A DNA stretch of 64,000 bases, taken from positions 444,405 through 508,404 of the forward strand of contig NZ_JABBXB010000002.1 in assembly GCF_013387485.1 (NCBI RefSeq), in the 5' to 3' direction. The position numbers were made by a program, and so were the translations under genes. Below are positions 10,282-54,970 of the stretch, one piece after another (positions within the stretch are counted from its first letter, which is position 1; each line of letters starts with the position of its first letter). The notes beneath the pieces were generated by a model. It saw nothing but the letters and a program-made list of their open reading frames with translations, was not told where the DNA came from and searched no databases. This DNA is from Stenotrophomonas sp. SAM-B (GTDB lineage Bacteria; Pseudomonadota; Gammaproteobacteria; Xanthomonadales; Xanthomonadaceae).

Positions 10282-10634
10282 GTCGTCTCCTTGACGATGG
10301 ACAGCACGGAGGACGACGAGCTGATCAAATACGTCTTGGCTTTGGTCTCGCCCCCCCCTGCCTTATAGGGGCCGCGAGGATAGGGGAGACAAGCGATTGG
10401 GCCAACAGCGAGGCTGTGGTCCACGGCACTGTAAAGTACGCCGGGTAGCGCAGGAGGTGGCGAACGCGTCAGTCAGTGACAGAGCTACCCTGCTCGCGAG
10501 TGTGCGAATGCAAGTCTTTGTGCATACACCGGTGTCCAGTGGTTGTCGGCATTGCCTGCATGTGCGCGGCAACCGTGCCTCCAGCCGCTACCAAGCGAGC
10601 CTGGTGCTGCCGCTGCACGTGCCAGGCAGACGCC
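10282..10634. other. Intergenic region without a recognised gene
   Basis: These 353 bp separate the 5' end of the large Cys-rich protein gene from the 3' end of fsr. A small inverted repeat CCCCT/AGGGG (10355-10359 and 10367-10371) lies about 75-90 bp upstream of the Cys-rich protein start, and a perfect palindrome ACACCGGTGT lies at 10526-10535. No open frame resembles a known protein. Confidence 0.5.
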
Positions 10635-11858
10635 TCAGTGCATGTTCGTCTTCGGCAGAAACGCAGTGGCCAGCCCAAGCAGTGGCAGGTACGAGGTGAA
10701 GTGGTAGACCCACACCAGACCGTGCACGTCGGCCAGATTGCCCAGCCCCGCGGCACCGATACCGCCGATGCCGAACATCAGGCCGAACATCAGCCCCGAG
10801 ACCATGCCCACGCGGCCCGGCACGGCTTCCTGCGCATACACCACGAGCGCCGCGAACGCCGAGGACATCACCAGCCCGATCACCACCGCCAGCACCGCCG
10901 TGCCCATCAGGTTGGCATAGGGCAGGGCGATCGCGAACGGGGCCACGCCCAGGAAGGAAATCCAGATCACCGCTTTGCGCCCGATCCGGTCCCCGACCGG
11001 ACCCCCGATGAAGGTGCCGAGCGCGACCGAGGCCAGGAAGATGAAGAGGTATATCTGGCTCTGCTGCACGCTCAGGCCGAAACGTTCCATCAGGTAAAAG
11101 GTGAAGTAGTTGGTGAACGAGGCGATGTAGACGAACTTGGCGAACATCAGCACCGCGATGACCGCGATCGCTTGGATCACCTTGCCGCGGCTCAAGCCGA
11201 TGCCGTGGCTTCTGGCCAGGCCCTTCATCTTGGCCTGGCCGTGCTGGATGGTCCAACCCGTCAGGCGGAACAGCACAGTGATGGCGAGCGCGGCGGCGAG
11301 CATGAACCAGGCGATCGCCCGCTGCCCGTGCGGAATCACGATCGCCGCCGCCAGCAGCGGGCCGATCGCCGAGCCGGTGTTGCCGCCGACCTGGAAGGTG
11401 GACTGCGCGGTACCGAAGCGACCGCCCGAGGCCATCCGCGCCACGCGCGAGGCCTCCGGATGGAAGGTGGCCGAACCGATGCCGACCACGGCCGCGGCGA
11501 CAAGCAGCATTTCGTAACGGGTCGCCGTCGCCATCAGGGCAATGCCGACGAAGGTCGCGATCATGCCGGACGGCAGCAGATAGGGCAGCGGCCGTTTGTC
11601 GGTGTACATGCCCACCCAGGGCTGCAGCAGCGAAGCGGTGACCTGGTAGACCAGCGCGATGATGCCGATCTGCCCGAAGGTCAGCGAGAACTGGGCCTTG
11701 AACATCGGATAGACCGCCGGCAGCACCGCCTGGATCATGTCGTTGAGCAGGTGCGCGAAGGCGGCGGCGCCGACGATGCGGATCGCGAAGCCCTGGTTCG
11801 GCGCGGGGCTGAGTGGTTCGGCGGGAATGACGGGGGCGGCAGCGGTTTCGGGGGTCAT
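10635..11858 (-). CDS. fsr: Fsr-type MFS efflux transporter (fosmidomycin resistance family)
   Basis: The 407-residue length matches E. coli Fsr (406). Twelve hydrophobic segments are visible. Family sequences include GAAAFAHLLNDMIQAVLPAVYP near the N-terminus (quoted as GAAAFAHLLNDMIQ and AVLPAVYP), TFHPEASRVARMASGGR, and the cytoplasmic GGPVGDRIGRKAVI loop of the second half. The protein exports fosmidomycin in enterobacteria; the natural substrate is unclear. ATG at 11858 starts the usual soluble leader of about 25 residues. A 9-bp palindrome lies 27-61 bp upstream. A 27-bp piece of this gene (11752-11778) recurs at 13222-13248 beside the gene remnants. Confidence 0.92.
   Translation of the reverse strand: MTPETAAAPVIPAEPLSPAPNQGFAIRIVGAAAFAHLLNDMIQAVLPAVYPMFKAQFSLTFGQIGIIALVYQVTASLLQPWVGMYTDKRPLPYLLPSGMIATFVGIALMATATRYEMLLVAAAVVGIGSATFHPEASRVARMASGGRFGTAQSTFQVGGNTGSAIGPLLAAAIVIPHGQRAIAWFMLAAALAITVLFRLTGWTIQHGQAKMKGLARSHGIGLSRGKVIQAIAVIAVLMFAKFVYIASFTNYFTFYLMERFGLSVQQSQIYLFIFLASVALGTFIGGPVGDRIGRKAVIWISFLGVAPFAIALPYANLMGTAVLAVVIGLVMSSAFAALVVYAQEAVPGRVGMVSGLMFGLMFGIGGIGAAGLGNLADVHGLVWVYHFTSYLPLLGLATAFLPKTNMH
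11752..11778 (+). repeat. 27-bp direct repeat, copy inside fsr
   Basis: These 27 bp in the 5' coding part of fsr (minus-strand reading IVGAAAFA) are identical, in the same orientation, to 13222-13248. Flanks on both sides differ at once. The sequence is GC-rich but too long to match by chance. Confidence 0.85.
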
Positions 11859-41203: not shown

Positions 41204-41692
41204 TCACACCACCTTGCAGCGCCCGGCCAATCCGGAGAGCGCGATGCCACTGATCATCGCGGTCGGCGCAGCGCAGCCCGCACCAATGATCGTGACGTCA
41301 ACGCCCGCCGCTTCCGGCGACAGTGCCGTATGCGTGATGCAGTGCTGGGTCATCATCCCGACCAGTCGAATGGCCGAGACGTTCCGGGCGGCGAGTGTTT
41401 CGCCCAGCGCAGTGCCGAGGAAGCTGTCGGCCTGATGCTTCTCGATCACTGGACAGCCCTCCAGCGCCTCGGCAATGGCCGGATGCAGTTCCGCGCCCTG
41501 GGTTCCTGCGGCCATGAACGGACCATCGCTCGGTGCGATGTGCTGGATGCCCACGACCAGCTCACCGGCCTGCCTGGCCTGCGCGATCACGTCCAGCGCT
41601 GCAGCCAAGGCCTGTTCGCTGTTTTCCAGCGGGAAGCGGCCGCCTGCGAAGTAGTCGTTCTGGATGTCGACCACGATCAGTGCAGTTTTCAT
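41204..41692 (-). CDS. Isochorismatase-like cysteine hydrolase
   Basis: The 162-residue protein has the full triad of the family: D9 (VVDIQNDY), the Lys in IEKHQADSF and the nucleophile Cys in MMTQHCITHTAL. Such enzymes hydrolyse isochorismate, nicotinamide or other amides. It is slightly short (usual 180-200) and ends soon after the core. AAGGAG before the ATG overlaps the stop of the metallo-beta-lactamase gene, so they share a message. The divergent GlxA-type regulator may control both. Confidence 0.85.
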   Translation of the reverse strand: MKTALIVVDIQNDYFAGGRFPLENSEQALAAALDVIAQARQAGELVVGIQHIAPSDGPFMAAGTQGAELHPAIAEALEGCPVIEKHQADSFLGTALGETLAARNVSAIRLVGMMTQHCITHTALSPEAAGVDVTIIGAGCAAPTAMISGIALSGLAGRCKVV

Positions 41693-41703
41693 GTTGTGCT
41701 CCT

Positions 41704-42573
41704 TCAGAAGTTCAGGGTTTCGCCATCTTCAGGAATCAGCACGCTGTCCTGGAGTGCTTTCTCACGGACGTAGCGGCGCAGGTCCGCACGGGAGACGGTC
41801 ATGTGATTCACCGCATCCATGTGGACGGCGACGATCTTCGCCGTCGGCGCCAACGCATGGACACGCGAGGTGTCCTCCACCCCCATGATGATGCCGGTAT
41901 CGAAGCCCTTGACCCGTGCATCGCCCGTGTTGAGCACGATGACATCGGGGGCATACCGCTTGATCGCGTCCCGTACGTCGCCGGTCCACACGGTGTCGCC
42001 GGCGAGGTAGATGGTCGGCTCACCAGCCTTCTGGAAGACGAAGCCGGTCACACTGCCGAGCAGCGTTGCCAGCGGCTCCACCTGGAACATGGCCGCCGAC
42101 CCGTGCTGGGCGGCGACGCGCGATATCTTCACGCCGCCAAAGGTGACGTGCGCGGGGAGGATACGGACATCAGCGAACCCTTTGCCGCGCAGCAGGGCCG
42201 CGTCGGCCTCATGCTGAACGAACATCGTCATCTTCCGCGGGATCAGCGTCTCGGCGGCCGGGTCCCAGTGATCGAGGTGGGTGTGGGTTAGCAGGACAGC
42301 ATCCACGTCCTTGAGCACCTGGCCCACATCGAAGGGGAGTTCGACGGTTGGATTGCGCAGTTCGCTGCGATATGTATCCGGGAAGCCGGGATATGCGCCC
42401 TTTGCGGCCAGCATCGGGTCCACCAGCAACACGGTGTCGCCATAGGTGATCTTGGCCGTGGCATTGCGGATCTGCTGGATCGACGTGGTGGTGGATGCCG
42501 GGCCTGCCGCGTTTGCGCTGGTCTGGATACCCAAGGCCAACACCGAGGCAAGTGCGAGGGACAGGAATTTCAT
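41704..42573 (-). CDS. Periplasmic metallo-beta-lactamase-fold hydrolase
   Basis: The 289-residue protein has a signal peptide (FLSLALASVLALGIQTSANA) and the motif THTHLDHWD that binds two metals, with further His and Asp in AQHGSAA, LAGDTVWTGD and VAVHMDAVNH. The fold resembles the L-ascorbate-6-phosphate lactonase/UlaG-like group. Substrate unknown. It is divergent from a GlxA-type AraC regulator with 95 bp between starts. Confidence 0.83.
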   Translation of the reverse strand: MKFLSLALASVLALGIQTSANAAGPASTTTSIQQIRNATAKITYGDTVLLVDPMLAAKGAYPGFPDTYRSELRNPTVELPFDVGQVLKDVDAVLLTHTHLDHWDPAAETLIPRKMTMFVQHEADAALLRGKGFADVRILPAHVTFGGVKISRVAAQHGSAAMFQVEPLATLLGSVTGFVFQKAGEPTIYLAGDTVWTGDVRDAIKRYAPDVIVLNTGDARVKGFDTGIIMGVEDTSRVHALAPTAKIVAVHMDAVNHMTVSRADLRRYVREKALQDSVLIPEDGETLNF

Positions 42574-42668
42574 GCGTTTCTCTCAGTCTGAGCGGATGGC
42601 GCCCAGATTGACGTGGAAGTGAACCTGTGAATACTGGCCTGCGAGACCAACAACGATGGAATCGGGCC

Positions 42669-43652
42669 ATGGCCAGCTACTGTTCATCCCAGCAACGCAG
42701 CACGCCCATCCGGGTCGTGGTGGTAGCGCCAGAAGGCGTCAGCGCCTTCCACCTGTCCGTCCCGCTGATGATCTTCGACGTGCATGCAGATGACCCGCCG
42801 CTGTTCCAACTGCGGATCGCCGCGGAGCGGAGAGGGGTCACGTTATCGGGTGGGCAGGTGGCGGTGACACCTCACGGCGGGCTGGAATTGCTTGACCAGG
42901 CCGAGGTGGTGATCATCCCCGGCTGGGCCAATCTGGATCACCCGCCGAGTGCCGCGCTGAGCGCCACGCTGGTTGCGGCACACCAACGTGGCGCCCACGT
43001 CGTGGGCCTGTGTTATGGCGCCTACGCGCTTGCGTACGCAGGCTTGCTCGATGGGCACGCCGCGTCAACACACTGGCTCGCCGAAGCGGATTTCCACGCG
43101 CGCTTTCCGGCGGTCACACTCGACATGAATGCCCTGTACGTCGACGAAGACCGCATCGTGACGTCGGCAGGCACCGGGGCGGCATTGGATTGCTGCATGT
43201 ACCTGGTCAGGAAGCTCTGCGGTGCACGCGAGGCAAACCGCATCGCCCGCATGATGGTCCTGCCGCCGCACCGCGAAGGCGGCCAATCCCAATACATCGA
43301 CCAACCGGTACCGGCTTCACCTCAGGATGCACTGCTCAGCAGGTTGCTGGACTACATGCGCGAAGATCTGCAACGCGATCATTCGCTGGATGAACTCGCC
43401 GAACGCGTGGCCATGAGCCGGCGATCGTTTACCCGTCGCTTCCTCAAGGCGACCGGCATGACGGTCGGCGGCTGGCTGGATGCCGAGCGCCTGCGCAGGG
43501 CGAAGGATCTGCTCGAGTCCACTTCTCTGTCCATCGATCAGGTGGCCGAGCGCTCCGGGTACCGCACGGCCGTATCGTTCCGTCAGAGCTTCAACCGCGC
43601 ATTCCAGGTGAGCCCGCGTGAGTGGCGGCGGGCATTCGCGCTCACGGAGTGA
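42669..43652 (+). CDS. GlxA-type AraC regulator (DJ-1/PfpI domain)
   Basis: ATG at 42669 gives 327 residues. The N-terminal half is a DJ-1/PfpI (amidotransferase-like) fold (VVVVAPEGVSAFHLSVPLMI, elbow GLCYGAYALAYAG). The C-terminal half is an AraC helix-turn-helix (LDELAERVAMSRRSFTRRFL, then QVAERSGYRTAVSFRQSFNR). Such regulators often repress or activate a divergent catabolic unit, here the metallo-hydrolase and isochorismatase-like genes. A GTG at 42627 is an alternative start. Confidence 0.9.
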   Translation: MASYCSSQQRSTPIRVVVVAPEGVSAFHLSVPLMIFDVHADDPPLFQLRIAAERRGVTLSGGQVAVTPHGGLELLDQAEVVIIPGWANLDHPPSAALSATLVAAHQRGAHVVGLCYGAYALAYAGLLDGHAASTHWLAEADFHARFPAVTLDMNALYVDEDRIVTSAGTGAALDCCMYLVRKLCGAREANRIARMMVLPPHREGGQSQYIDQPVPASPQDALLSRLLDYMREDLQRDHSLDELAERVAMSRRSFTRRFLKATGMTVGGWLDAERLRRAKDLLESTSLSIDQVAERSGYRTAVSFRQSFNRAFQVSPREWRRAFALTE

Positions 43653-43963
43653 GCCGGACGCTGGTCAACCGCGTGATTGCGTGCGAAGCCAGCGGTGGAG
43701 GAGGGGCGCACGAACCGGCCCCGCTTTTGCGCCATTGCGACGGTTTGTCGCCGCCTCGCGTTGGCCAGGTGCCCGCCGGAGCAGGTCATGGGCAGCCGAC
43801 AGCCCCGCACTGCACATTGACAATTCTCCATATAGGACGTTTATATCCTACATGGGTCTGCTCCAATCCTTGAGCTTGTGCATTGGCTGGCGGGCAGGTC
43901 ACAGGATTCTCAACCGCCTGCATCGTAACGCAGGCCTCAGCACGCCATTCAAGAGAGCACGAC
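43653..43963. other. Intergenic region with promoter of the hydrolase operon
   Basis: These 311 bp hold no gene. The second half contains the shared 40-bp promoter block (43817-43856), leaving an untranslated leader of about 110 nt before the alpha/beta hydrolase ATG. The first half shows nothing recognisable. Confidence 0.6.
43817..43856 (+). promoter_or_regulatory. Shared regulon promoter, copy 1
   Basis: TTGACA at 43817-43822, then 17 bp, then TTTATA (43840-43845) make a good sigma-70 promoter. TAGGA (43833-43837) and TCCTA (43846-43850) form an inverted repeat across the -10 box. The block ends TCCTACATGGG. It aligns without gaps to 49362-49401 (31 of 40 identical) and more loosely to 48165-48204. 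Confidence 0.75.
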
Positions 43964-45022
43964 ATGACAGCAGTAAAGGGTTGGCGGCGGTTTTGGCGAT
44001 GGGTGAAGTGGATCCTGCTGGGTCTGCTCGCGCTCGTGATCCTTCTCACCCTGATCGGGGTGGTGTACGAGGCGCTCGCGCGCCGCAGCGCGGCGACCGA
44101 CCATCCGCTGCGTGGGCAGATGGTCGATATCGGCGGGCGCCAGATGCATATCGAGTGCCGCGGCAGCGGCTCGCCGACCGTGATCTTCGAATCCGGGCTG
44201 GGCACGGGCGGGACGATGGATTGGACGCGCGTACACGACCGGATCGCCGGCTTCACCCGTGCCTGCGCCTACGATCGCGCCGGCATCATGCGCAGCGACG
44301 CCAAGGACACCCCGCAGCGTGCGTCGGCCGTGGCCGATGACCTGCATGCCCTGTTGAAAGGCGCCGGCATCACCGATCCCCTGGTGTTGGTCGGTCACTC
44401 CATCGGCGGGCCGTACATCCGGACCTATGTCGGGCGTTACGGCGGGCAGGTGGCCGGCCTGGTGATGGTCGACCCCTCGCACCCCGACCAGATCGCCCGG
44501 CTCGGCAGTGTGGTGAGCATCGATGTCCACCCGAAGAAGGTGTCGCTGTTGATGCACACCGCGACGGCGCTGTCGCGGACGGGCCTGGTCCGCTTCCTGT
44601 TCTCGCGCGCCGATCATGGCCCGCGACCCAAGGATGAGGCCGCAGAGATCACGGCCTTCTCCAGCGCCTCGGTCACCGGCGCGACCGCCGAACTCGACGG
44701 CTTCGACAGCACCATGGACGATGCCCGCGCGGTCACGTCGTTTGGCGACCGCCCGGTGATCGTGTTGACCGCGTTGAAACCGTTCAAGCCCGATGAGCTG
44801 GAGAAGATGGGCCTGTCGGCAGAGGAGGGCGCCCGGTTCAAGCAGGAATGGCGCACGCTGCATGCCGAGCAGGCCGCCCTGTCCAGCCGCGGGCAGCAAC
44901 AGATCGTGAGCGACTCGGGCCACTACATCCAGATCGACCAGCCGGATCGCGTGGTCGCTGCGGTCCGCGAGGTGGTGGATGACGTGCGCGCTGAGGCGCG
45001 TACCGACAAGGAGATGAAATGA
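43964..45022 (+). CDS. Membrane-anchored alpha/beta hydrolase
   Basis: The 352-residue protein has an N-terminal membrane helix (WILLGLLALVILLTLIGVV, about residues 17-35) and then a periplasmic alpha/beta hydrolase. The nucleophile elbow is VGHSIGGPY, the oxyanion strand VIFESGLGTGG, and a late SDSGHYIQIDQP holds the catalytic His. AGAGAG precedes the ATG. It starts a three-gene operon; its stop overlaps the amidohydrolase start (ATGATG). In this setting it could cleave an ester or amide of a peptide substrate, but this is inference. Confidence 0.85.
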   Translation: MTAVKGWRRFWRWVKWILLGLLALVILLTLIGVVYEALARRSAATDHPLRGQMVDIGGRQMHIECRGSGSPTVIFESGLGTGGTMDWTRVHDRIAGFTRACAYDRAGIMRSDAKDTPQRASAVADDLHALLKGAGITDPLVLVGHSIGGPYIRTYVGRYGGQVAGLVMVDPSHPDQIARLGSVVSIDVHPKKVSLLMHTATALSRTGLVRFLFSRADHGPRPKDEAAEITAFSSASVTGATAELDGFDSTMDDARAVTSFGDRPVIVLTALKPFKPDELEKMGLSAEEGARFKQEWRTLHAEQAALSSRGQQQIVSDSGHYIQIDQPDRVVAAVREVVDDVRAEARTDKEMK

Positions 45023-46641
45023 TGAAGCGCACCCTGCTCTGGGCGGGCCTGTCGATGCTGCTGGCCACCCACGCAGCCGCTGCCGACCATGACCTGGTGA
45101 TCCGTGGTGGCCGCGTGCTCGACGGCGCCGGCAATCCGTGGGTCCGCGCCGATGTGGCGATCAAGGACGGCCGGGTGGTCCAGGTCGGCCAGGTCCCCGG
45201 ACACGGCACCCGCGAGATCGACGCCACCGGGCGCTATGTATCACCCGGCTTCATCGACATGATGGACCAGTCCGGTGCGGCGCTGCTCAAGGACGGCGCC
45301 GCGGAAAACAAGCTGCGCATGGGCGTGACCACGCTGATCGGCGGCGAGGGTGGCCCGCCGGTGCCTGCGTCCGGGATGCCCGGCTACTTCAAGCAGCTGG
45401 AAACGCAGGGTATCGCGGTGAACTTCGGCACCTACTACTCCTCGACCCAGGCCCGCGTGCATGTGATGGGTGATGCCGCGGGCGCGCCCACGCGCAAACA
45501 GCTCGATGCCATGGGCGAGCAGGTCAAGATCGCGATGGAGGCCGGCGCGTTCGGCATCTCCAGTGCGCTGATCTATGCGCCCAGCAGCTTCCAGAGCACC
45601 TCGGACCTGATCTCGCTGGCCAAGGTCGCCGCCCAATGCGATGGCTTCTATGCAACGCATATGCGTGACGAGAGCGAGGGCGTGGTCAAGGCGATCGAGG
45701 AAGCCATCGAGATCGGCGAGAAGGGCGGGGTCAAGGTGGAGATCTTCCACCTCAAGGCGGCCTACGCGCCGGAATGGGGCAAGCTGATGCCGCAGGCGCT
45801 GGCGACGATCAATGCCGCACGCGACCGTGGCGTCGATGTCGCCGCCGATCTGTATCCCTACACCGCGGGCGGCACCGGCCTGGAAATCATCGCGCCCAGC
45901 TGGGTCTGGGCCGAGGGTCTCGAGAAAGGCATTGAACGCGTGCGTGACCCCAAGGTGCGCGAGCGGATGAAGAAAGAGGTCGCGGCGGGTTCCATGCCCG
46001 GCTGGTCGAACCTGGTGCATGCCTCGGGCGGCTTCGAGAATGTGCGCCTGGCCAACAGCTTCAGCGTCAAATATCGGCGGTTCCACGGCAAGACGCTGGC
46101 CGATATCGGCAAGGAACTGAATCTCGATCCCGCGGACGCGGCCTGGGACATCGCGCTCGAAGGGCTGCCCAATCGCGCGGTTGCGCTGTACTTCATGATC
46201 AGCGAACAGGACGTGCAGCTCGCCCTGCGCCAACCGTGGGTCAGCATCGGCAGTGATGCCGCGGCGGCGGTGAACTACGGCAGCGACGGCGCCATCGGCC
46301 TGCCGCACCCGCGGGCCTATGGCACCTTCCCGCGCATCCTCGCCGAGTATGTGAAGCGACAGCACGTGCTGACGTTGGAGGATGCGGTGCGCAAGATGAC
46401 CAGCTGGCCGGCGCAGCGGATGGGGCTGAGCGATCGCGGGTTGATCCGCGAGGGCATGCGCGCGGACATCGTGCTGTTCGATCTGGACACACTGGATGAT
46501 GTAGCGAGCTGGGATGCACCTGCTGGCGCGCCGACCGGCATCGAGACCGTGATCGTCAACGGCGTGGTCAGCTTCGAGGGCGGCAAGCACACCGGCGCCA
46601 GGGCCGGCTCGGCGCTGCGCCATCAATGCCGCACGCGCTGA
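45019..46641 (+). CDS. D-aminoacylase-like amidohydrolase lacking HxH
   Basis: The 540-residue protein has a signal peptide (ending near HAAAAD) and the TIM-barrel amidohydrolase fold of N-acyl-D-amino-acid deacylases. Conserved sites seen are H214 (YATHMRDES), H244 (EIFHLKAA) and D413 (SIGSDAAA). The usual HxH after 'PGFID' is replaced by M82 and Q84 (PGFIDMMDQSG), and E110 (GGEGG) stands where D-aminoacylase has its zinc Cys. Only one metal site seems possible. The start could be ATG at 45022 instead, since AAGGAG is 8 nt from it. It sits between an alpha/beta hydrolase and a serine hydrolase gene. Confidence 0.82.
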   Translation: MMKRTLLWAGLSMLLATHAAAADHDLVIRGGRVLDGAGNPWVRADVAIKDGRVVQVGQVPGHGTREIDATGRYVSPGFIDMMDQSGAALLKDGAAENKLRMGVTTLIGGEGGPPVPASGMPGYFKQLETQGIAVNFGTYYSSTQARVHVMGDAAGAPTRKQLDAMGEQVKIAMEAGAFGISSALIYAPSSFQSTSDLISLAKVAAQCDGFYATHMRDESEGVVKAIEEAIEIGEKGGVKVEIFHLKAAYAPEWGKLMPQALATINAARDRGVDVAADLYPYTAGGTGLEIIAPSWVWAEGLEKGIERVRDPKVRERMKKEVAAGSMPGWSNLVHASGGFENVRLANSFSVKYRRFHGKTLADIGKELNLDPADAAWDIALEGLPNRAVALYFMISEQDVQLALRQPWVSIGSDAAAAVNYGSDGAIGLPHPRAYGTFPRILAEYVKRQHVLTLEDAVRKMTSWPAQRMGLSDRGLIREGMRADIVLFDLDTLDDVASWDAPAGAPTGIETVIVNGVVSFEGGKHTGARAGSALRHQCRTR

Positions 46642-46678
46642 AAGACGTGCGCGCACCAACACACACAGGACACACCTC

Positions 46679-48121
46679 ATGATCCGACATTCCACCGGCG
46701 GGAGCCTTCTCGCCCTGGCGCTGGCCACGTCTGCGCCGGCATTCGCTGCCGCGCCCCCGATTGCCAGCGCGGATGACCTGGGCACGGCCGTCTCGGCGCA
46801 GATCGCCTGCGCGGGCATTTTCGTGGCCAACCGCGCCGAGGCCGACGTGCTGCGTGATGACATCCACTCGTTGGCGCCCTTCACCAAGGCGGTGACGCTG
46901 TCGGTGGACCGCAGGGCGGGTACCGTCACCGCCTCCGCGCCCGGCACGCCCACCCGCACGGCGCTGCATCGTCCGGCAGTCGGCTGCACGCTGACCACCG
47001 GCGACGTGCCGCTCACCGCACTCAAGGCCCAGACGGCCCGGCTCAAGCCGCTGTCGCCGCTGTCGTCACGCCCGTGGCCGCAGGGCGACCAGCCCGTGCC
47101 GGCACTGCAGGCCGCCGCTGAAACGCACCTCGACCGGGCCGCACTCGATGCAGCGGTGCAGGCCGCCTTCGATGAGCAGAACGTGGATGGTTATCCGGAC
47201 ACCCGCGCAATCCTGGTCGTGCAGGGTGGCGCGATCGTCGCCGAACGCTATGCGCCCGGCTTCGACCAGGACACCCGCATGCTCGGCTGGTCGGCGACCA
47301 AGAGCTTCATGGGCACGCTGGTCGGCCTGCTGGTCGATGATGGCGTGCTCAAGCTGGATGAGCCTGCGCCGGTGCCGGAGTGGAAGGGTGCGGGCGATCC
47401 GCGTGGCGCCATCACGCTGCGCCAGCTGCTGACGATGTCGAGCGGGCTGGCGTTCGTCGAAAGTTACAAGCCGGGCAATGACTCGATCAAGATGCTCTTC
47501 GAGGCAGGCGACATGGGCGCACTGGCGGCTGCTTCGCCGCTGGAGCACGCCCCGGGGACGTTCTGGAGCTATTCGTCGGGCACGACCAACCTGCTGTCGC
47601 GGATCGTCTTCGAGGCGACCGGCGGCACCCTGGAGGGCATGACCCGTTTCGCGCAGCAGCGGCTGTTCGAGCCCGCCGGCATGCGCAGTACCCTGATCGA
47701 ACCGGACGAATCCGGCGTGCTGGTCGGCAGTTCCTATGGCTATGCGACGGCGCGCGACTGGGCACGCTACGGGCTGCTGCACCTGAACCACGGCCAGGCC
47801 GGCGGCAAGCGGTTGCTGTCGCAGGAATGGCTCGACTTCGCGCTGACGCCGACCCCTGCATCGCCGCGACCATCCTACGGCGCGCAGCTGTGGTTGAACC
47901 GCGCAGAAGCCACGGAAGCGGGGCGCAAGGTGCTGCAGGATGTGCCACCCGATGCGTTCATGGCGATGGGCCACAACCACCAGATCGTGGCGGTGATCCC
48001 CTCGCAGGATGCCGTGATCGTGCGTCTGGGCTGGACCCCGGAAGGGCAGAAGTTCGACTGGAACAAGCACCTGTCGCGGATCGCGGCGGCGCTCGCTCCG
48101 GCCGTCGCACCGACGGAGTAG
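46679..48121 (+). CDS. Exported serine hydrolase (class C beta-lactamase family)
   Basis: The 480-residue protein has a signal peptide (LLALALATSAPAFAA). About 120 residues unlike other family members precede the hydrolase domain. Active-site motifs are SATK (S205, K208) and YSSG (Y298); the third motif is HNH in MGHNHQIVAV instead of KTG. Related enzymes are D-amino-acid amidases, D-peptidases and esterases (DmpB/EstB and 6-aminohexanoate dimer hydrolase types). AGGA lies before the ATG. It ends the operon; a hairpin follows at 48144-48163. Confidence 0.87.
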   Translation: MIRHSTGGSLLALALATSAPAFAAAPPIASADDLGTAVSAQIACAGIFVANRAEADVLRDDIHSLAPFTKAVTLSVDRRAGTVTASAPGTPTRTALHRPAVGCTLTTGDVPLTALKAQTARLKPLSPLSSRPWPQGDQPVPALQAAAETHLDRAALDAAVQAAFDEQNVDGYPDTRAILVVQGGAIVAERYAPGFDQDTRMLGWSATKSFMGTLVGLLVDDGVLKLDEPAPVPEWKGAGDPRGAITLRQLLTMSSGLAFVESYKPGNDSIKMLFEAGDMGALAAASPLEHAPGTFWSYSSGTTNLLSRIVFEATGGTLEGMTRFAQQRLFEPAGMRSTLIEPDESGVLVGSSYGYATARDWARYGLLHLNHGQAGGKRLLSQEWLDFALTPTPASPRPSYGAQLWLNRAEATEAGRKVLQDVPPDAFMAMGHNHQIVAVIPSQDAVIVRLGWTPEGQKFDWNKHLSRIAAALAPAVAPTE

Positions 48122-48143
48122 CCGGAATCGAAGAGAAGAAGGA

Positions 48144-48163
48144 GGGCGCCCACAGCGGCGCCC
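48144..48163 (+). terminator. Hairpin terminator of the hydrolase operon
   Basis: GGGCGCC (48144-48150) and GGCGCCC (48157-48163) pair with a 6-nt loop, 22 bp past the serine hydrolase stop. The next promoter's TTGACA begins 1 bp later. There is no long T-run. Confidence 0.65.
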
Positions 48164-48164
48164 A

Positions 48165-48204
48165 TTGACAGTTCTCTTGATAGAGAACTACTGTCTCAAT
48201 GTGA
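48165..48204 (+). promoter_or_regulatory. Shared regulon promoter, copy 2
   Basis: TTGACA (48165-48170) and TACTGT (48189-48194) with an 18-bp spacer. The spacer is a perfect inverted repeat, GTTCTCT (48171-48177) and AGAGAAC (48182-48188). GAGA/TCTC symmetry continues into the -10 region. It matches copies 1 and 3 best over TTGACAGTTCTCT, after which it drifts. Confidence 0.68.
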
Positions 48205-48234
48205 GAATTACTCACCTTCAGGCAGGGAAACGAG

Positions 48235-48306
48235 ATGTACTCGATCAAGCTGTTGGCGATGCCCCCGATCACGCCTGACCCTGCCGCCGACGGGGCAAAC
48301 GGCTGA
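48235..48306 (+). CDS. 23-codon ORF upstream of and coupled to the epimerase gene
   Basis: An ATG at 48235 has an AGGGAAACGAG ribosome site. The frame reads MYSIKLLAMPPITPDP and ends in TGA (48304-48306). The TGA overlaps the epimerase ATG (TGATG), the standard geometry for translational coupling. The peptide has no family. It may be a leader peptide that couples translation, or a small peptide in its own right. Conservation of this frame in relatives would decide. Confidence 0.45.
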   Translation: MYSIKLLAMPPITPDPAADGANG

Positions 48307-49304
48307 TGGCCCGCCTGAAACTCGGCATTGCGGTAGATGCCCTGCGTCTCGCAGCCCCCTTCCGTATCGCCAGTCACGTATTCGACTCCCGGCTGGCCTG
48401 CCTGGTCACCCTGGATGACGGCACGCATGTCGGCCGCGGTGAGGCGACCGGGGTTTATTACCTCGGCGAAGACATCGAGACCATGCGCGCCCAACTGGAA
48501 GCGGCGCGCGATGCGCTCGAAGCCCATCCGACACGCGAGGAGCTGCGTGCGATCCTGCCCGCTGGCGGCGCACGCAACGCGGTCGATGCCGCGCTGTGGG
48601 AGCTGGAATCCAAGCAGACCGGCACACCCGTCTGGGCGCTGGCCGGGCTCGCTGCGCCACGGCCGCTGCCGACGACATTCACGGTGGGTGCCGACGACCC
48701 CGCAGCCATGGCGGCGGCCGCAGTTGCTTATCGGCAGGCGCGCTCCATCAAGGTCAAATTGACCGGTGACCTGGACCTCGACATCGCGCGCGTCGCCGCC
48801 ATTCGTGCGGTGCGCCCGGATGTCTGGCTGGGCGTGGACGCCAACCAGGGCTATCTGATCGGCGATCTCGACCGCCTCGTGACGGCCATGCTTGCAGCCG
48901 ATGTGTCACTGATCGAACAGCCACTGGCGCGCGGGCGCGAAGCCGATCTCGATGGATTCGTGTCGCCCATCCCGCTCGCCGCGGACGAGAGCGCGCTCAC
49001 CTTCGCGGACGTGGAAGGACTGAAGGGCCGCTTCAAGGTATTCAACATCAAGCTCGATAAATGCGGCGGCCTGACCGAAGCCCTGTTGATCGCGGCCGCG
49101 GCGCGCGAAGCGGATCTGGGCGTGATGGTCGGTTGCATGGTGTGCAGCAGCCTGGGGGCCGCGCCGGGTTTCGTGGTCGGGCAGCTCTGTGACCTCGTCG
49201 ACCTGGACGGTCCGACCTTCCTCAAGCAGGACCGTAGCCCGGGGGTCGTTTATCGCGACGGCACGATCTGGTGCGACGACGCGGTCTGGGGCGCCGGGAG
49301 CTGA
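48306..49304 (+). CDS. Dipeptide (Ala-Glu type) epimerase, enolase superfamily
   Basis: The 332-residue protein has all catalytic residues of the L-Ala-D/L-Glu epimerase group: K149 and K151 (SIKVKL), metal ligands D178 (VDANQG), E204 (IEQP) and D227 (ADES), and K249 (NIKLDK). The enolase capping domain spans about 1-110. The enzyme inverts the C-terminal residue of a dipeptide, as YkfB/YcjG do for murein-derived Ala-Glu. Other substrates are possible in this family. There is no signal peptide, so it acts in the cytoplasm. It is translated through the upstream 23-codon frame and driven by the shared promoter. Confidence 0.9.
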   Translation: MARLKLGIAVDALRLAAPFRIASHVFDSRLACLVTLDDGTHVGRGEATGVYYLGEDIETMRAQLEAARDALEAHPTREELRAILPAGGARNAVDAALWELESKQTGTPVWALAGLAAPRPLPTTFTVGADDPAAMAAAAVAYRQARSIKVKLTGDLDLDIARVAAIRAVRPDVWLGVDANQGYLIGDLDRLVTAMLAADVSLIEQPLARGREADLDGFVSPIPLAADESALTFADVEGLKGRFKVFNIKLDKCGGLTEALLIAAAAREADLGVMVGCMVCSSLGAAPGFVVGQLCDLVDLDGPTFLKQDRSPGVVYRDGTIWCDDAVWGAGS

Positions 49305-49361
49305 GGCGCGGGGGGCGGGGGCGCCTGGCGCACGAAATGATGTCAATGCTGCGACGCAGGA

Positions 49362-49401
49362 TTGACAGTTCTCTGAACAGGACTATTGTGTCCTACATGG
49401 G
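49362..49401 (+). promoter_or_regulatory. Shared regulon promoter, copy 3
   Basis: TTGACA (49362-49367), then AGGAC (49379-49383) and GTCCT (49390-49394), a perfect 5-bp inverted repeat with 6 bp between, over a TATTGT -10-like box (49384-49389). It ends TCCTACATGGG, as copy 1 does. It is 133 bp ahead of the TonB receptor start. Confidence 0.75.
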
Positions 49402-49533: not shown

Positions 49534-51786
49534 ATGAGTCACTGTTCGCTCCGAATGAACGCGTTGTCGCTGGCCTGCACTGCAGGCATCCTGGCCTTGG
49601 GCTGCAGCGCCACGGCACTGGCACAGGTCGCCGCCGAGAACCCCAACCGCGACGAGGTACATACCCTGGGCACCGTGACCGCGACCGCGCAGAAACGCGT
49701 GGAAGTGGTGACCGATATCCCGATGTCCATCAGCGTCATCAGCGAAGAGCAGCTCGACCGCCTCCAGGTCAACAACATGAATGACCTGGCCGGACTGGTC
49801 CCCGGTCTGCAGATCACCAGCCTCGGCGCGCCGGGCCGCTCGACGATCTCGATCCGCGGCATCACCCCGATGGGCAACACCGCCTCGACCTCGATCTATG
49901 TCGACGATGTGCCGCTGACCGCCAACGGCTCGCTGTCCGGTGCCACCTCCGGCATGTTCGATCTGCTGCCTTACGACGTGCAGAACGTGGAAGTGCTGCG
50001 CGGGCCGCAGGGCACGCTGTACGGTGCCAGTGCCCTGGGCGGCGTGGTCAAGTACGTCACCAAACGGCCGGACCTGGAGGACTTCTCGGGCCGCGTCGGC
50101 GCCACGATGCGCGTTGTCGACGATGGCGGCCGGGTCGGTCACTCCGAGCGTGCCGCCGTCAACGTGCCGCTGGTGGAGGGTCAGCTGGCCCTGCGCGCCA
50201 GCTACGCCGAGCAGACCAGCCCGGGCTGGATCGACAACAGCGTCCTGCATCGCCGCGACACCAACGATGTGTACCAGAACGCCGGCCGCCTTTCGCTGTT
50301 GTGGAAGGCGTCGGACACGGTGGATGTCCTGCTCACCGCGATGCGCCAGGAAAACAAGGGCGACAATTTCGCGACGGTCGCACTGGACCCGGCCACCTTC
50401 AAACCGAAGCTGCCCGGCTACGCCAATGAATACCTGTTCCTGCAGCCCAGCACGATCAAGTACGACGTGTACGGCCTGACGGTGGACTGGGATCTGGGCT
50501 GGGCCGATTTCACCTCTGCCAGCAGCTGGATGAAATCCAACTCGTGGCGCCTGCAGGACCAGTCGGTGGAGTACATCCCGCTGCTCGGCCAGAAGCCGGG
50601 CGTCGGTCCGGTGATGGCCTATGCCGGCCTGGACACGGATATCGAACTGAAGAAGTGGACCCAGGAACTGCGCCTGACGTCCAAGGGCGACAGCCGCCTG
50701 GAGTGGCAGCTCGGCGCGTTCTACACCGATGAGGATGCCACCTACACCGAGCGTGGCAGTGCATTGAGCCCGGCGTTCATCCCGGTGCTCGATCTGTTCA
50801 CCGCCTCGGTGCTGACCACCTATAAAGAGAAGGCCCTGTTCGGCAACGCCACCTGGAAATTCACCGACCGCTTCGACTTGGCCTTGGGCGTGCGCCATGC
50901 GCGCAACGACCAGGAGTTCCGCCAGACGCTCGGCGGTCCGTTGGGCGGCGACGGGGTGCAGCGCATCACCGAATCCTCGGAAAGCGTGACCACCTGGAGC
51001 GCCAGTCCGCGGCTGTTCCTGGGCGAGGACACCATGGCCTACGTGCGCGTGGCCACCGGCTATCGCGCCGGCAGCCCGAACCCCATCCTGCCGGCCGCCC
51101 CCGATGTGCCTTCGCAGGTGAAGTCGGACACGCTGATCAACTACGAAGCCGGCCTCAAGACCCACTTCTGGGATCGGCGTGCGCTGGTGGAAGTGGCGGC
51201 CTTCCGGATCGACTGGGACGACATCCGCCTGAACCTGCTCACGCCCCAGGGCATCTCCTACGGCGTCAATGGTGGCGAAGCACGCAGCCAGGGCGTTGAA
51301 TTCACCGGCGCGCTGATGCCGGTCGACGGCCTGCGCCTGAGCAGCAGCCTGACCTACACCGATGCGAAGCTGACCGCGCCGATTCCGCCGGCCCGCCCGG
51401 GCGGCCCCAACCAGGCCGAATCCGGTGCACAGCTGCCGCAGGTGCCCGAATGGTCAGGCAGCCTGCAGGCCGACTACCAGTTCCCGACGAGTGGCGAGTG
51501 GGGCTGGAGCGTCGGTGGCGCGCTGCGCTATTACGGCGAGCGCGCGGCCTCGGTGGCGTCGACGCAGTCCTTTGATCTGCCCAGCTACACCACGGTCGAC
51601 CTGACCGCGGAAGTGAGCAGCCAGAACACGACCGTGCGCTTCTTCATCACCAACCTCACCAACAAGGACATCTACGTGGCGGCAGGCAGGACGATTCCTG
51701 CGGCAGGCGCGCAGGAGTACCGGCGCTGGAATGCGGTGATGATGCAACCGCGCACGGTGGGTGTGTCGCTCGATTACAGCTTCTGA
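49534..51786 (+). CDS. TonB-dependent outer-membrane receptor
   Basis: The 750-residue protein has a signal peptide (ACTAGILALGCSATALA), a TonB-box-like EVHTLGTVTATAQKR, a plug domain (VISEEQLDRLQVNNMNDLAG, VEVLRGPQGTLYGASALGG) and a 22-strand barrel ending RTVGVSLDYSF. It is of the CirA/FecA-like type used for siderophores, but in Xanthomonadaceae also for plant carbohydrates and peptides. The shared promoter links it to the peptide-type hydrolases and epimerase upstream, which makes a peptide or amide ligand more likely than iron. Confidence 0.93.
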   Translation: MSHCSLRMNALSLACTAGILALGCSATALAQVAAENPNRDEVHTLGTVTATAQKRVEVVTDIPMSISVISEEQLDRLQVNNMNDLAGLVPGLQITSLGAPGRSTISIRGITPMGNTASTSIYVDDVPLTANGSLSGATSGMFDLLPYDVQNVEVLRGPQGTLYGASALGGVVKYVTKRPDLEDFSGRVGATMRVVDDGGRVGHSERAAVNVPLVEGQLALRASYAEQTSPGWIDNSVLHRRDTNDVYQNAGRLSLLWKASDTVDVLLTAMRQENKGDNFATVALDPATFKPKLPGYANEYLFLQPSTIKYDVYGLTVDWDLGWADFTSASSWMKSNSWRLQDQSVEYIPLLGQKPGVGPVMAYAGLDTDIELKKWTQELRLTSKGDSRLEWQLGAFYTDEDATYTERGSALSPAFIPVLDLFTASVLTTYKEKALFGNATWKFTDRFDLALGVRHARNDQEFRQTLGGPLGGDGVQRITESSESVTTWSASPRLFLGEDTMAYVRVATGYRAGSPNPILPAAPDVPSQVKSDTLINYEAGLKTHFWDRRALVEVAAFRIDWDDIRLNLLTPQGISYGVNGGEARSQGVEFTGALMPVDGLRLSSSLTYTDAKLTAPIPPARPGGPNQAESGAQLPQVPEWSGSLQADYQFPTSGEWGWSVGGALRYYGERAASVASTQSFDLPSYTTVDLTAEVSSQNTTVRFFITNLTNKDIYVAAGRTIPAAGAQEYRRWNAVMMQPRTVGVSLDYSF

Positions 51787-51864
51787 TCGAGCGGGCCGGG
51801 GCGGTGCGGCACCGAAGCAGATATGCTTGCACGGGTCCGCCCCACACCCGCAGGCCGCAGCGCG

Positions 51865-52785
51865 ATGAGCTTCAGACTGGATTCCCTCCTGCGTTCCGCC
51901 GCACTGTTGCTGTGTGCGGCGCCGCTGTTGACGGGATGTGCCCGGACCCACCGGGAAACCGTGCTGTCCTCGGACACGCTGAAGGTCGTGGCCGTGACCG
52001 AAAGCCGACTGGACATCAACGTCAGCCGGTATCAGCACTACACGACGTACGTGCTGTACGTGGACGGCAACAGGCTGTCCGATCAGGGATTCTCCGCGCT
52101 CCTGCAGGATCGTGACGCAGCGGGCGATCAGTTCGTGCATACCGATGCTGTGGTGCTGGACGAAGACGCGGTGCTGATCGCCTCGCATAACCGTGACGGC
52201 TCACGCTGCTGGACGACGCGGCTTGCCGCACGCAATGGCACGCCGACACTGGACACGATCATGAAAGGGACGGCCGACTGCAGCATCCGCCCGGCCGCTC
52301 CGGGCTGGCGGGCGCTTTACAGAGATCCCGGCGATCTGATCCTGGTCCGTGAACGACCTTTCCAGGTCCATCCCATCGCGGGGTACTGGTATGCGCTGTG
52401 GATCGACGGCGACACCGTCGCCCTGTACCGGAAGGACCGGGACCATGAGCGCCTCGTCGTCAGGCTGGCACGGATTTCTTCGGATACCCCGCTTGCCGAG
52501 CAGACCCTGCCGATGCAGACCTATGCGGAGCCCGACCTGCTGCATGCCTCGCCCGAGCAGCGACGGCAATGGCTGTTCGACAACTTCACGGTCTCCACGG
52601 GCGCCTCTCCCTCGATCGCGCTGCGTTCCGACCATCGACTCGACACGATCACACCCGAGGTATGGGCGGAGTATCAGGAGATCGAGCGGCAGAACAAGGA
52701 ACTGGATGCCCAGGCACGTGCCGCCGGCGACGCATGGATCGAGGCCCAGCGCCGGGAGCTGATGGAAGCGGAGACGCCCCGGTGA
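51865..52785 (+). CDS. Lipoprotein of unknown function
   Basis: The 306-residue product has a lipoprotein signal (LLLCAAPLLTGC, Cys at about residue 26). The body is beta-rich, with conserved-looking YTTYVLYVDGNRLSDQG and HPIAGYWYALWIDGDTVALY, and the C-terminus is a charged helix (EYQEIERQNKELDAQARAAG). No family recognised. The stop overlaps the LysR start (GTGA), so it is translated with that regulator, an odd pairing. Confidence 0.65.
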   Translation: MSFRLDSLLRSAALLLCAAPLLTGCARTHRETVLSSDTLKVVAVTESRLDINVSRYQHYTTYVLYVDGNRLSDQGFSALLQDRDAAGDQFVHTDAVVLDEDAVLIASHNRDGSRCWTTRLAARNGTPTLDTIMKGTADCSIRPAAPGWRALYRDPGDLILVRERPFQVHPIAGYWYALWIDGDTVALYRKDRDHERLVVRLARISSDTPLAEQTLPMQTYAEPDLLHASPEQRRQWLFDNFTVSTGASPSIALRSDHRLDTITPEVWAEYQEIERQNKELDAQARAAGDAWIEAQRRELMEAETPR

Positions 52786-53788: not shown

Positions 53789-54970
53789 ATGCCTGCTGCC
53801 ATCTATGTGTTTTCGCTGTGCGCCTTCGCGTTCGGTCTGTCTGAATTCGTTGTCGCGGGCCTGTTGACCGCCATTGCCGATGATCTCGATGCGCGGATCT
53901 CCCTCGTCGGCACGGCCATCGCGGCCTATGCACTGGGCGCGGCCATCGGTGCACCCTTCATCACCGCCCTGGTCGCCCACTGGCGGGACCGGCAGATCCT
54001 GCTGCTGGCCACCGCATTGCTCGGGCTGGGCAGCCTGTTGATGAGTGCGTCGCCGAATCTGGTGACCCTGCTGGTGATCCGCTTCGTGGTCGGCCTCGGC
54101 CACGGCGTGTTCATGGCGGTGGCCTCCGACGCAGCTACCCGGCTGGTCGAGCCGCAGCGGTCCGGCCGGGCGCTGTCGGTGGTCTGGATCGGACTGACGC
54201 TTGCCCTGGCGTTCGGCGTTCCGATCGGAACCTACCTCGGCAGCGTGTGGTCGTGGCGGGTGGTCTTCCTGACCATCGGGGCGCTCAGCGTGGCCGGCAT
54301 GTTGGGCCTTGCGCTGTGCATGCCGCGGGGTGGGACCGCTGCGCCGTCCGCCCGAGGCGGCGCATGGAAGGGCATCCAGGCCATCACCCACCCGCAGCTG
54401 CTGATGACGGCGGGCATCGGCGCGCTGGTCAGCGTCGCCACGTTCTCGTTCTTCACCTTCGTCTCGCCCTATCTGCAGCAGATCACCGGCGTGGACGTGC
54501 AGTGGCTGAGCCTGGGCATGCTGCTGTTCGGTGTCTGCGCCATCGCAGGCAATCTGCTCGGCGGATTCCTCGGCGATGCCATGGACGGGGATCGCAGCCT
54601 CCGGCTGGCGCTGGTCGCATTGGCGGTGAATCTGCTAGGGCTGTACGGCTTCGCAGGTGTGCCGGCCATGATGATGCTCCTGATCGGCACGCTGGGCATC
54701 TGCTTCTTCTCCATCGTGACGCTGCTGACCCTGCGCCTGCTCAAGCAGGCCCAGCACTTCATTCCCGGCTACAGCTCGGTGGCGGCCGGACTGAACATCG
54801 CCTCGTTCAACCTGGGCACCGCGCTGGGCGGCGCCGTGGGTAGCCTGACGATCAGCTACGCGACGCTCGCATCGGTGCCGCTGGCAGGGGCCGTGGCCGC
54901 GCTCCTGGCGGGCATCGTGCTGTATCTGCAGCGGCGACGGATGAGCGCCATCATCCACATACGTCCGTGA
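53789..54970 (+). CDS. MFS transporter (DHA1-like)
   Basis: The 393-residue protein has twelve membrane helices. It resembles the AraJ/YdhP/PbuE group of drug or metabolite exporters (FAFGLSEFVVAGLLTAIADD, then RFVVGLGHGVFMAVASDAAT with the motif-B-like stretch). It follows the LysR gene by 101 bp, and its 3' end overlaps the convergent M19 gene by 20 bp. Direction of transport and substrate are unknown. A carrier for amino acids or peptides would fit the neighbourhood. Confidence 0.88.
   Translation: MPAAIYVFSLCAFAFGLSEFVVAGLLTAIADDLDARISLVGTAIAAYALGAAIGAPFITALVAHWRDRQILLLATALLGLGSLLMSASPNLVTLLVIRFVVGLGHGVFMAVASDAATRLVEPQRSGRALSVVWIGLTLALAFGVPIGTYLGSVWSWRVVFLTIGALSVAGMLGLALCMPRGGTAAPSARGGAWKGIQAITHPQLLMTAGIGALVSVATFSFFTFVSPYLQQITGVDVQWLSLGMLLFGVCAIAGNLLGGFLGDAMDGDRSLRLALVALAVNLLGLYGFAGVPAMMMLLIGTLGICFFSIVTLLTLRLLKQAQHFIPGYSSVAAGLNIASFNLGTALGGAVGSLTISYATLASVPLAGAVAALLAGIVLYLQRRRMSAIIHIRP

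Follow-up and report, generated by a model that had tools for sequence, protein, structure and literature searches.

What do the three promoter-like blocks that precede hydrolase, racemase and receptor genes in one stretch of the Stenotrophomonas sp. SAM-B genome have in common, and which protein might read them? The stretch, hereafter the window, covers 64 kb of a genome of 4.25 Mb in 65 contigs, and its blocks lie on the forward strand at 43817..43856 (block 1), 48165..48206 (block 2) and 49362..49401 (block 3). Block 1 precedes genes for an alpha/beta hydrolase, an amidohydrolase and a serine hydrolase, block 2 a gene for a DgcA-like racemase and block 3 a gene for a TonB-dependent receptor. 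From sequence comparison we propose, with a probability of about 80%, that blocks 1 and 3 and probably block 2 are promoter-operators of one regulon under an XRE-cupin repressor that is encoded elsewhere in the genome, in a second locus on the contig named C4 here.

Three blocks in the window and a fourth on contig C4

An earlier note on this DNA, made from its letters alone, had described three copies of a promoter/operator block at these places, and they are indeed there: with up to one mismatch allowed, TTGACARTTCTC matches the window three times, each time exactly, and 100 dinucleotide shuffles of the window gave a mean of 0.27 matches, with none reaching three. Across the whole genome, again with one mismatch allowed, there are six places, namely the three window blocks, which are exact, C4:355877 and two others that lack a continuation into the block. 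Direct reading also bears out the likeness of copies 1 and 3, which are 78% identical across 41 nt and share an inverted repeat (AGGAC-N6-GTCCT in block 3, AGGA/TCCT in block 1), as well as the palindrome of block 2 (GTTCTCT-TGAT-AGAGAAC). The blocks start 147, 141 and 172 nt before the start codons at 43964, 48306 and 49534, respectively. We read block 1 as a putative -35 element (TTGACA) with a two-dyad operator that would form the promoter of the hydrolase operon, and block 3 as the putative promoter/operator of the TonB receptor gene.

The same note had counted three promoters, which proved too few, as there is a fourth strong block, accompanied by weaker sites, at a second locus on C4. 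This block is a further exact TTGACANTTCTC, with a second DgcA-like gene some 2 kb downstream of it, and it sits between a divergent XRE-cupin gene and a hydrolase/DgcA-like cluster paralogous to the window genes, an arrangement also present in three related genomes (G013, G019 and G003). The XRE-cupin gene (C4 356106-356738; at 10107-10742 in the C4 stretch L037) encodes 211 amino acids with an XRE-type helix-turn-helix (HTH_19, 38.2 bits) and a C-terminal cupin (Cupin_2, 33.0 bits), both above cut-off, and homologues at 92-98% identity occur in Stenotrophomonas records. After the block, the C4 cluster runs through a serine hydrolase, the DgcA-like racemase, a second serine hydrolase, a POT peptide transporter, a TonB receptor and a DgcN-like gene. 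G013 and G019 have the same layout, and G003 has a single serine hydrolase, with an amidohydrolase after the POT gene in place of the second. In a fourth genome, G024, the divergent block of the XRE-cupin gene precedes the POT gene, a second block precedes the DgcN-like gene and a third the TonB gene. Putative target sites, as a block before a divergent hydrolase or POT gene, thus stand beside the regulator's own gene in all five genomes. The two loci of SAM-B look like a split or duplicated module, because G024 and G003 carry hydrolase, racemase, TonB and DgcN-like genes together in a single stretch.

As regulator, the earlier note had suggested the LysR-type gene at 52782 of the window or a repressor encoded elsewhere, and the latter is the better guess because the second locus carries both the fourth block and the likely regulator. 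Control by the window's own LysR gene, or by its AraC-type gene at 42627, would be favoured by their proximity to the blocks, and in G013 and G019, too, the LysR gene follows the TonB gene. Its product, however, has no match above 70 bits in the G024 locus and a homologue in just one of 80 XRE-cupin loci described below, so that it is not kept together with the system, and for the AraC-type gene the G013 and G019 stretches give no match above 70 bits and have a pair of efflux genes upstream of block 1 instead. Both candidates were rejected on this synteny, and we find it hardly credible that either controls the blocks.

Pairing of block and regulator across genomes

The strongest support for the C4-encoded XRE-cupin protein comes from 80 loci that were chosen by similarity of the regulator protein alone, as the best 80 of 268 relatives, and that belong to Xanthomonadales (Stenotrophomonas, Luteimonas, Lysobacter, Pseudoxanthomonas, Arenimonas) and Alphaproteobacteria (Sphingomonas, Sphingopyxis, Sphingosinicella and others). 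In 69 of them the divergent strand carries a block no more than 400 nt from the regulator gene, one mismatch being allowed over 11 fixed bases, and the two controls, with the block on the same strand or with a reversed pattern, gave 0/80 each. Serine hydrolase genes are found in 77 of these loci, DgcA-like genes in 74, DgcN-like genes in 70 and TonB genes in 66. The locus of Arenimonas daejeonensis (L189 1746-6661) has its TonB and POT genes each in two tblastn pieces, and these genes are possibly broken.

It is this adjacency that carries the argument, because co-occurrence within the genus is confounded. Profile R1 detected blocks in five of 41 genus genomes, which are the same five that carry the XRE-cupin gene among the 37 searched for it, and since genes, blocks and regulator come and go together this proves nothing alone. 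Under stricter filters, and with 146 of up to 194 candidates scored in some genomes, R1 gave no block in the other 36. In 61 genomes the 12-mer with which the blocks begin occurs at 36 places, 17 of them in the five genus genomes with the XRE-cupin gene and 19 elsewhere; inspection by eye of 18 of the latter showed none with the whole block, and some are alike in part, with an AGGA or GGAGGA stretch (L063 and L064, for example) or a CTCTAAT (L087). Six XRE-cupins from order-level relatives, at 31-44% identity, show no block and no dyad in the 400 nt upstream of their genes, and the same six differ at the residues HDR after the recognition helix. The conservation that the earlier note had expected ahead of orthologous genes is seen for all three blocks in G013 and in G019 and, in G024, for the TonB orthologue. 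G003 has a block ahead of a TonB paralogue, and the orthologous DgcA gene of G024 departs from this pattern.

A weight matrix, the check that the earlier note had proposed, points the same way for two of the three copies. Built over 40 columns from 69 regulator-proximal sites, none of them from SAM-B, the matrix gave 136 hits of at least 16 bits over 1.54 Mb of sequence, and a single mononucleotide shuffle of each locus gave none. Seventy-three of these hits adjoin the regulator, one per locus, and are mostly the training sites themselves; the 63 further copies, spread over 62 of the 80 loci, lie outside the training set and precede TonB genes (30), M19 dipeptidase genes (28) and DgcN-like genes (4), with one copy left unassigned. 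The window also has an M19 gene, and no block-like site was seen upstream of it with up to three mismatches allowed. Block 3 scores 44.8 bits and block 1 scores 42.1 bits. A second matrix, made from 61 non-Stenotrophomonas sites and limited to columns 13-40, which had played no part in picking the sites, still ranks block 3 first and block 1 second among 127,922 positions, and a shared operator for these two copies is well supported by such comparisons. On the C4 stretch (35,924 positions) it places the regulator's block first, a site before the DgcN-like gene second and one before the TonB gene third. The TonB site (L037:3248, minus strand, 14.4 bits) has similar counterparts in G013 and S. 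rhizophila and was not seen in the aligned G019 stretch, and the DgcN-like site (11 bits with R1, E about 2) occurs at the same place in three genomes; both are probably further operator sites, judged by these matches. Profile R2, from 57 distinct sites with near relatives of the C4 site included and none from SAM-B, returned three places in the SAM-B genome, with 150 of 450 first-look candidates scored: the C4 block (E 1.1e-8), block 3 (1.2e-5) and block 1 (1.4e-4).

The blocks might alternatively be strong sigma-70 promoters that were duplicated with their genes and hold no operator. TTGACA is invariant in 17 genus sites, which would agree with this, though these were picked by a 12-mer that itself holds TTGACA. 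Over 68 distinct sites the mean information per column is 1.97, 1.51, 1.28 and 0.69 bits in consecutive segments of the block, the first 12 columns being inflated because they were used to pick the sites, and 0.16-0.32 bits in the flanks. Conservation thus continues beyond the -35 element, with a mean of 1.34 bits over columns 13-28 in the 61 non-Stenotrophomonas sites, across two proteobacterial classes and with flanks near zero, and we regard plain duplicated promoters as very improbable.

Anatomy of the probable operator and a possible mode of repression

If the blocks are operators of the XRE-cupin protein, their symmetry should give an idea of how it binds. The consensus of 57 sites is TTGACAATTCTCTAATCAGGATCATTATnnCCnnATnGGG, and the clearest form of the dyad is a perfect TCCTGATCAGGA about 65 bp before the regulator's start codon, which is also found before the regulator in G013, G019 and G024. 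An exact TCCTRATYAGGA occurs at one place in the SAM-B genome, before the regulator gene, with ten more places at one mismatch. Among the 80 loci, 13 (eight of them Stenotrophomonas) have a mismatch-free dyad within 250 nt upstream of the regulator, and shuffles gave none; some of the matches with two or three mismatches near the regulator coincide with the first dyad of the block itself. In 50 of 67 sites the best dyads inside the block have a spacing of 20 bp, and a pair of dyads at this distance can be read before the DgcN-like gene too, in SAM-B and in G019. The position in the core promoter fits what would be expected of a palindromic XRE-cupin operator.

Block 2 is the diverged and uncertain copy. 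It keeps TTGACAGTTCTC, its right arm is replaced by GAGAAC, and it holds the dyads GTTCTC-N6-GAGAAC, of which this is the one exact occurrence in the genome, and TCTCA-N3-TGAGA. These dyads could belong to another protein, in which case block 2 would serve a different regulator and have only TTGACANTTCTC in common with the other blocks, which we think rather unlikely. It scores -3.5 bits with the 40-column matrix, and its rank among the 127,922 positions drops from 3 to 48 without the TTGACA columns and to 1,246 without the first 12 columns; nor was it recovered by R2 among the candidates scored. On the other side, block 2 has the same 12-mer start and promoter position and lies between two other blocks of the same module, the arms of its palindrome are kept in G013 and G019 where the centre varies, and the DbuR operator of Pseudomonas putida likewise shows an AATTCTC...AGAATT form (PMC12724383). 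We therefore consider block 2 a probable member of the regulon, uncertain because of its rank of 1,246. The idea of one shared promoter/operator, as put forward in the earlier note, is supported for copies 1 and 3, by matrix ranks and by blocks at orthologous genes, and it is not supported for copy 2 as a copy of the same operator.

In the repression that we favour, the 211-amino-acid regulator would bind as dimers at two dyads about 20 bp, or two helical turns, apart. With TTGACA at -35, the spacer between -35 and -10 would hold the first dyad and the transcription start the second, so that binding would exclude RNA polymerase, and the regulator would probably repress its own gene through the TCCTGATCAGGA dyad. 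Such promoter occlusion with self-regulation is likely, because most of the sites of the XRE-cupins of Pseudomonas aeruginosa PAO1 lie in core promoters and the targets rise in mutants (PMC7901475) and because the system resembles that of DbuR. The regulon would comprise the alpha/beta hydrolase, amidohydrolase, serine hydrolase, DgcA-like racemase and TonB receptor of the window and the serine hydrolases, second DgcA-like racemase, POT transporter, TonB receptor and DgcN-like gene of C4. It is conceivable that the XRE-cupin protein binds the blocks and activates. DgcR of Pseudoalteromonas reportedly acts positively on dgcN and dgcA, and NceR of Neisseria is reported to be an activating XRE regulator. 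A consensus -35 element with dyads over the spacer and the start argues against activation here, as do the repressing activity of the PAO1 XRE-cupins with determined regulons (PMC7901475) and of DbuR (PMC12724383), and we consider activation quite unlikely.

Release of the XRE-cupin repressor would come from a ligand of its cupin domain, probably D-glutamate or a product of peptides that contain it, a guess drawn from the genes, as the DgcN-DgcA pathway converts D-glutamate to L-glutamate, and a weak one. The regulator residues H134, E138 and H173 are invariant in 36 of 36 aligned regulators and align with the H-x3-E...H of the iron enzyme HppE, which we take to be iron ligands, and since the cupin keeps these positions, sensing may need a metal. 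A structure model (predicted local distance difference test 81.1, predicted template modelling score 0.58, with uncertain domain placement) matched 1y9q in Foldseek (E 1.4e-12, TM-score 0.40), an XRE-cupin that was reportedly solved with D-methionine (PMC7901475).

Several findings weigh against this reading and have to be set beside it. The 12-mer is absent near the regulator in 11 of the 80 loci, no matrix hit of 16 bits lies near it in seven, and three have none anywhere in the stretch. Within the genus, the co-occurrence of genes, block and regulator (5/37 genomes) is confounded, G024 lacks a separate block for its orthologous DgcA gene, and both C4 and G003 also have LysR-type genes some kilobases away from the XRE-cupin gene. 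G003 lacks a separate perfect dyad before the regulator, and the pooled dyad symmetry of the blocks is not significant by column shuffles (13/300 for the best centre, 29/300 for the 20-bp pair, 111/300 in a second test), for which reason the case for dyads depends on the perfect ones ahead of the regulator and on the 20-bp spacing within the blocks. To this come the poor fit of block 2 to the matrices beyond its first 12 bases and the scores of the DgcA-like and DgcN-like proteins, which lie under the NCBIfam cut-offs, so that D-glutamate would be a presumed substrate. The guess at the ligand is weakened further because no effector was found for DbuR and induction by D-amino acids seemed independent of DbuR (PMC12724383).

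Surrounding genes and related systems

The genes behind the blocks, all on the forward strand, begin with the alpha/beta hydrolase at 43964..45022 (Pfam Abhydrolase_6 and Abhydrolase_1). It is followed at 45019..46641 by the amidohydrolase (Pfam Amidohydro_3, 94.3 bits; NCBIfam NF006560, 205.7 bits, under the cut-off of 340), presumably D-aminoacylase-like, and at 46679..48121 by the serine hydrolase of the beta-lactamase family (Pfam Beta-lactamase PF00144, 128.5 bits), which we take to be S12-like. Between block 2 and the DgcA-like gene lies an open reading frame (ORF) of 23 codons (48235..48306), whose stop overlaps the DgcA start (TGATG); its length and overlap are kept in G013 and G019 and its amino-acid sequence is not. 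The DgcA-like racemase/epimerase of the enolase superfamily (48306..49304; Pfam MR_MLE_C and MR_MLE_N) reaches 347.6 bits and its C4 counterpart 366.2 bits against racemase_DgcA (NF042940, cut-off 400), and the DgcN-like protein of G003 reaches 436.3 bits against DgcN (NF041892, cut-off 480), the SAM-B copy being truncated at the end of stretch L037; as all scores fall short, we retain the labels DgcA-like and DgcN-like. The TonB-dependent outer-membrane receptor occupies 49534..51786 (Pfam TonB_dep_Rec_b-barrel and Plug).

Before block 1, the AraC-type regulator gene, whose product has a DJ-1/PfpI domain, and two presumably hydrolase-like ORFs occupy 41204-43652. Like the AraC-type gene, the two ORFs lack a match above 70 bits in the stretches of G013 and G019. 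The TonB gene is followed by an ORF of 320 amino acids (51823-52785) that overlaps the LysR start by 4 nt and has no Pfam or NCBIfam match; it is 75% identical in G019 and 96% in G013, and it has no match in the G024 locus. A major facilitator superfamily transporter at 53789-54970 has Cmx/CmrA chloramphenicol efflux as its best NCBIfam match, at 216.9 bits and far under the cut-off of 400.

Among the closest known systems is that of DbuR, an XRE repressor of the dbu operon for D-branched-chain amino acids in P. putida, with a footprint of 44 bp that includes AATTCTCATATATTAGAATT over the predicted -10 (PMC12724383). The two systems share a divergent XRE regulator, a link to D-amino-acid catabolism, a footprint about as long as the block and an AATTCTC left arm of the palindrome that equals the block's left arm. 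In contrast, DbuR has one adjacent operon, one palindrome and a D-amino-acid oxidase, whereas the present system spreads over several promoters in two loci, mostly has a pair of dyads at a distance of about 20 bp, and involves hydrolase, racemase and TonB genes. PsdR of P. aeruginosa, an XRE-cupin repressor of mdpA and dppA3 (PMC7901475, PMC10965056), is similar in its involvement in small-peptide uptake and hydrolysis and in its direct sites beside its own gene (PMC7901475). It differs in its operator, TTAAG-N5-CTTAA (PMC10965056), and in having two direct targets, around its own gene, by DNA affinity purification sequencing, to which lasR was later added (PMC7901475, PMC10965056). The XRE-cupin polyamine regulators PauR and PuuR are alike in a dispersed regulon of many sites with probable self-regulation, PauR with 29 genes at 12 locations (PMC7901475), and the present regulator matches the PuuR model weakly, far under its cut-off (45.2 bits, cut-off 211). 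They belong to another pathway and have another operator.

As for the enzymes, racemase_DgcA and DgcN are the best NCBIfam matches here, and by this likeness the DgcA-like and DgcN-like proteins may process D-glutamate by acetylation and by racemisation of N-acetyl-D-glutamate. The DgcN-DgcA pathway, which converts D-glutamate to L-glutamate (PMC12363236, PMC10845958), is said to go back to Yu et al. 2023, ISME J (cited in PMC12363236). Its regulator is reportedly DgcR. The present proteins are under both cut-offs, lie in a context of TonB, hydrolase and peptide-transporter genes, and would have an XRE-cupin regulator. No XRE-cupin tied to dgcN or dgcA was found in the literature searched, which left subscription papers mostly outside, and the regulon may still have been described.

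Somewhat short of even confidence, we suggest that a clade of XRE-cupin repressors in Xanthomonadales and Sphingomonadales, of which the papers searched gave no description, governs the uptake and racemisation of D-glutamate peptides through an unusually well-kept two-dyad operator, with TonB receptor, hydrolases, peptide transporter and DgcN/DgcA-like enzymes as its module, possibly with metal-dependent sensing, and that a second, unlinked locus has been captured in some Stenotrophomonas. A vague shared promoter is hereby replaced by a testable pair of regulator and operator, and with the operator as a guide the regulon can be sought in many bacteria of soil and water. The pair would further predict when such bacteria take up and dismantle peptides with D-amino acids, e.g. 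peptidoglycan fragments, and a repressor of a kind that usually acts locally would here control two unlinked loci.

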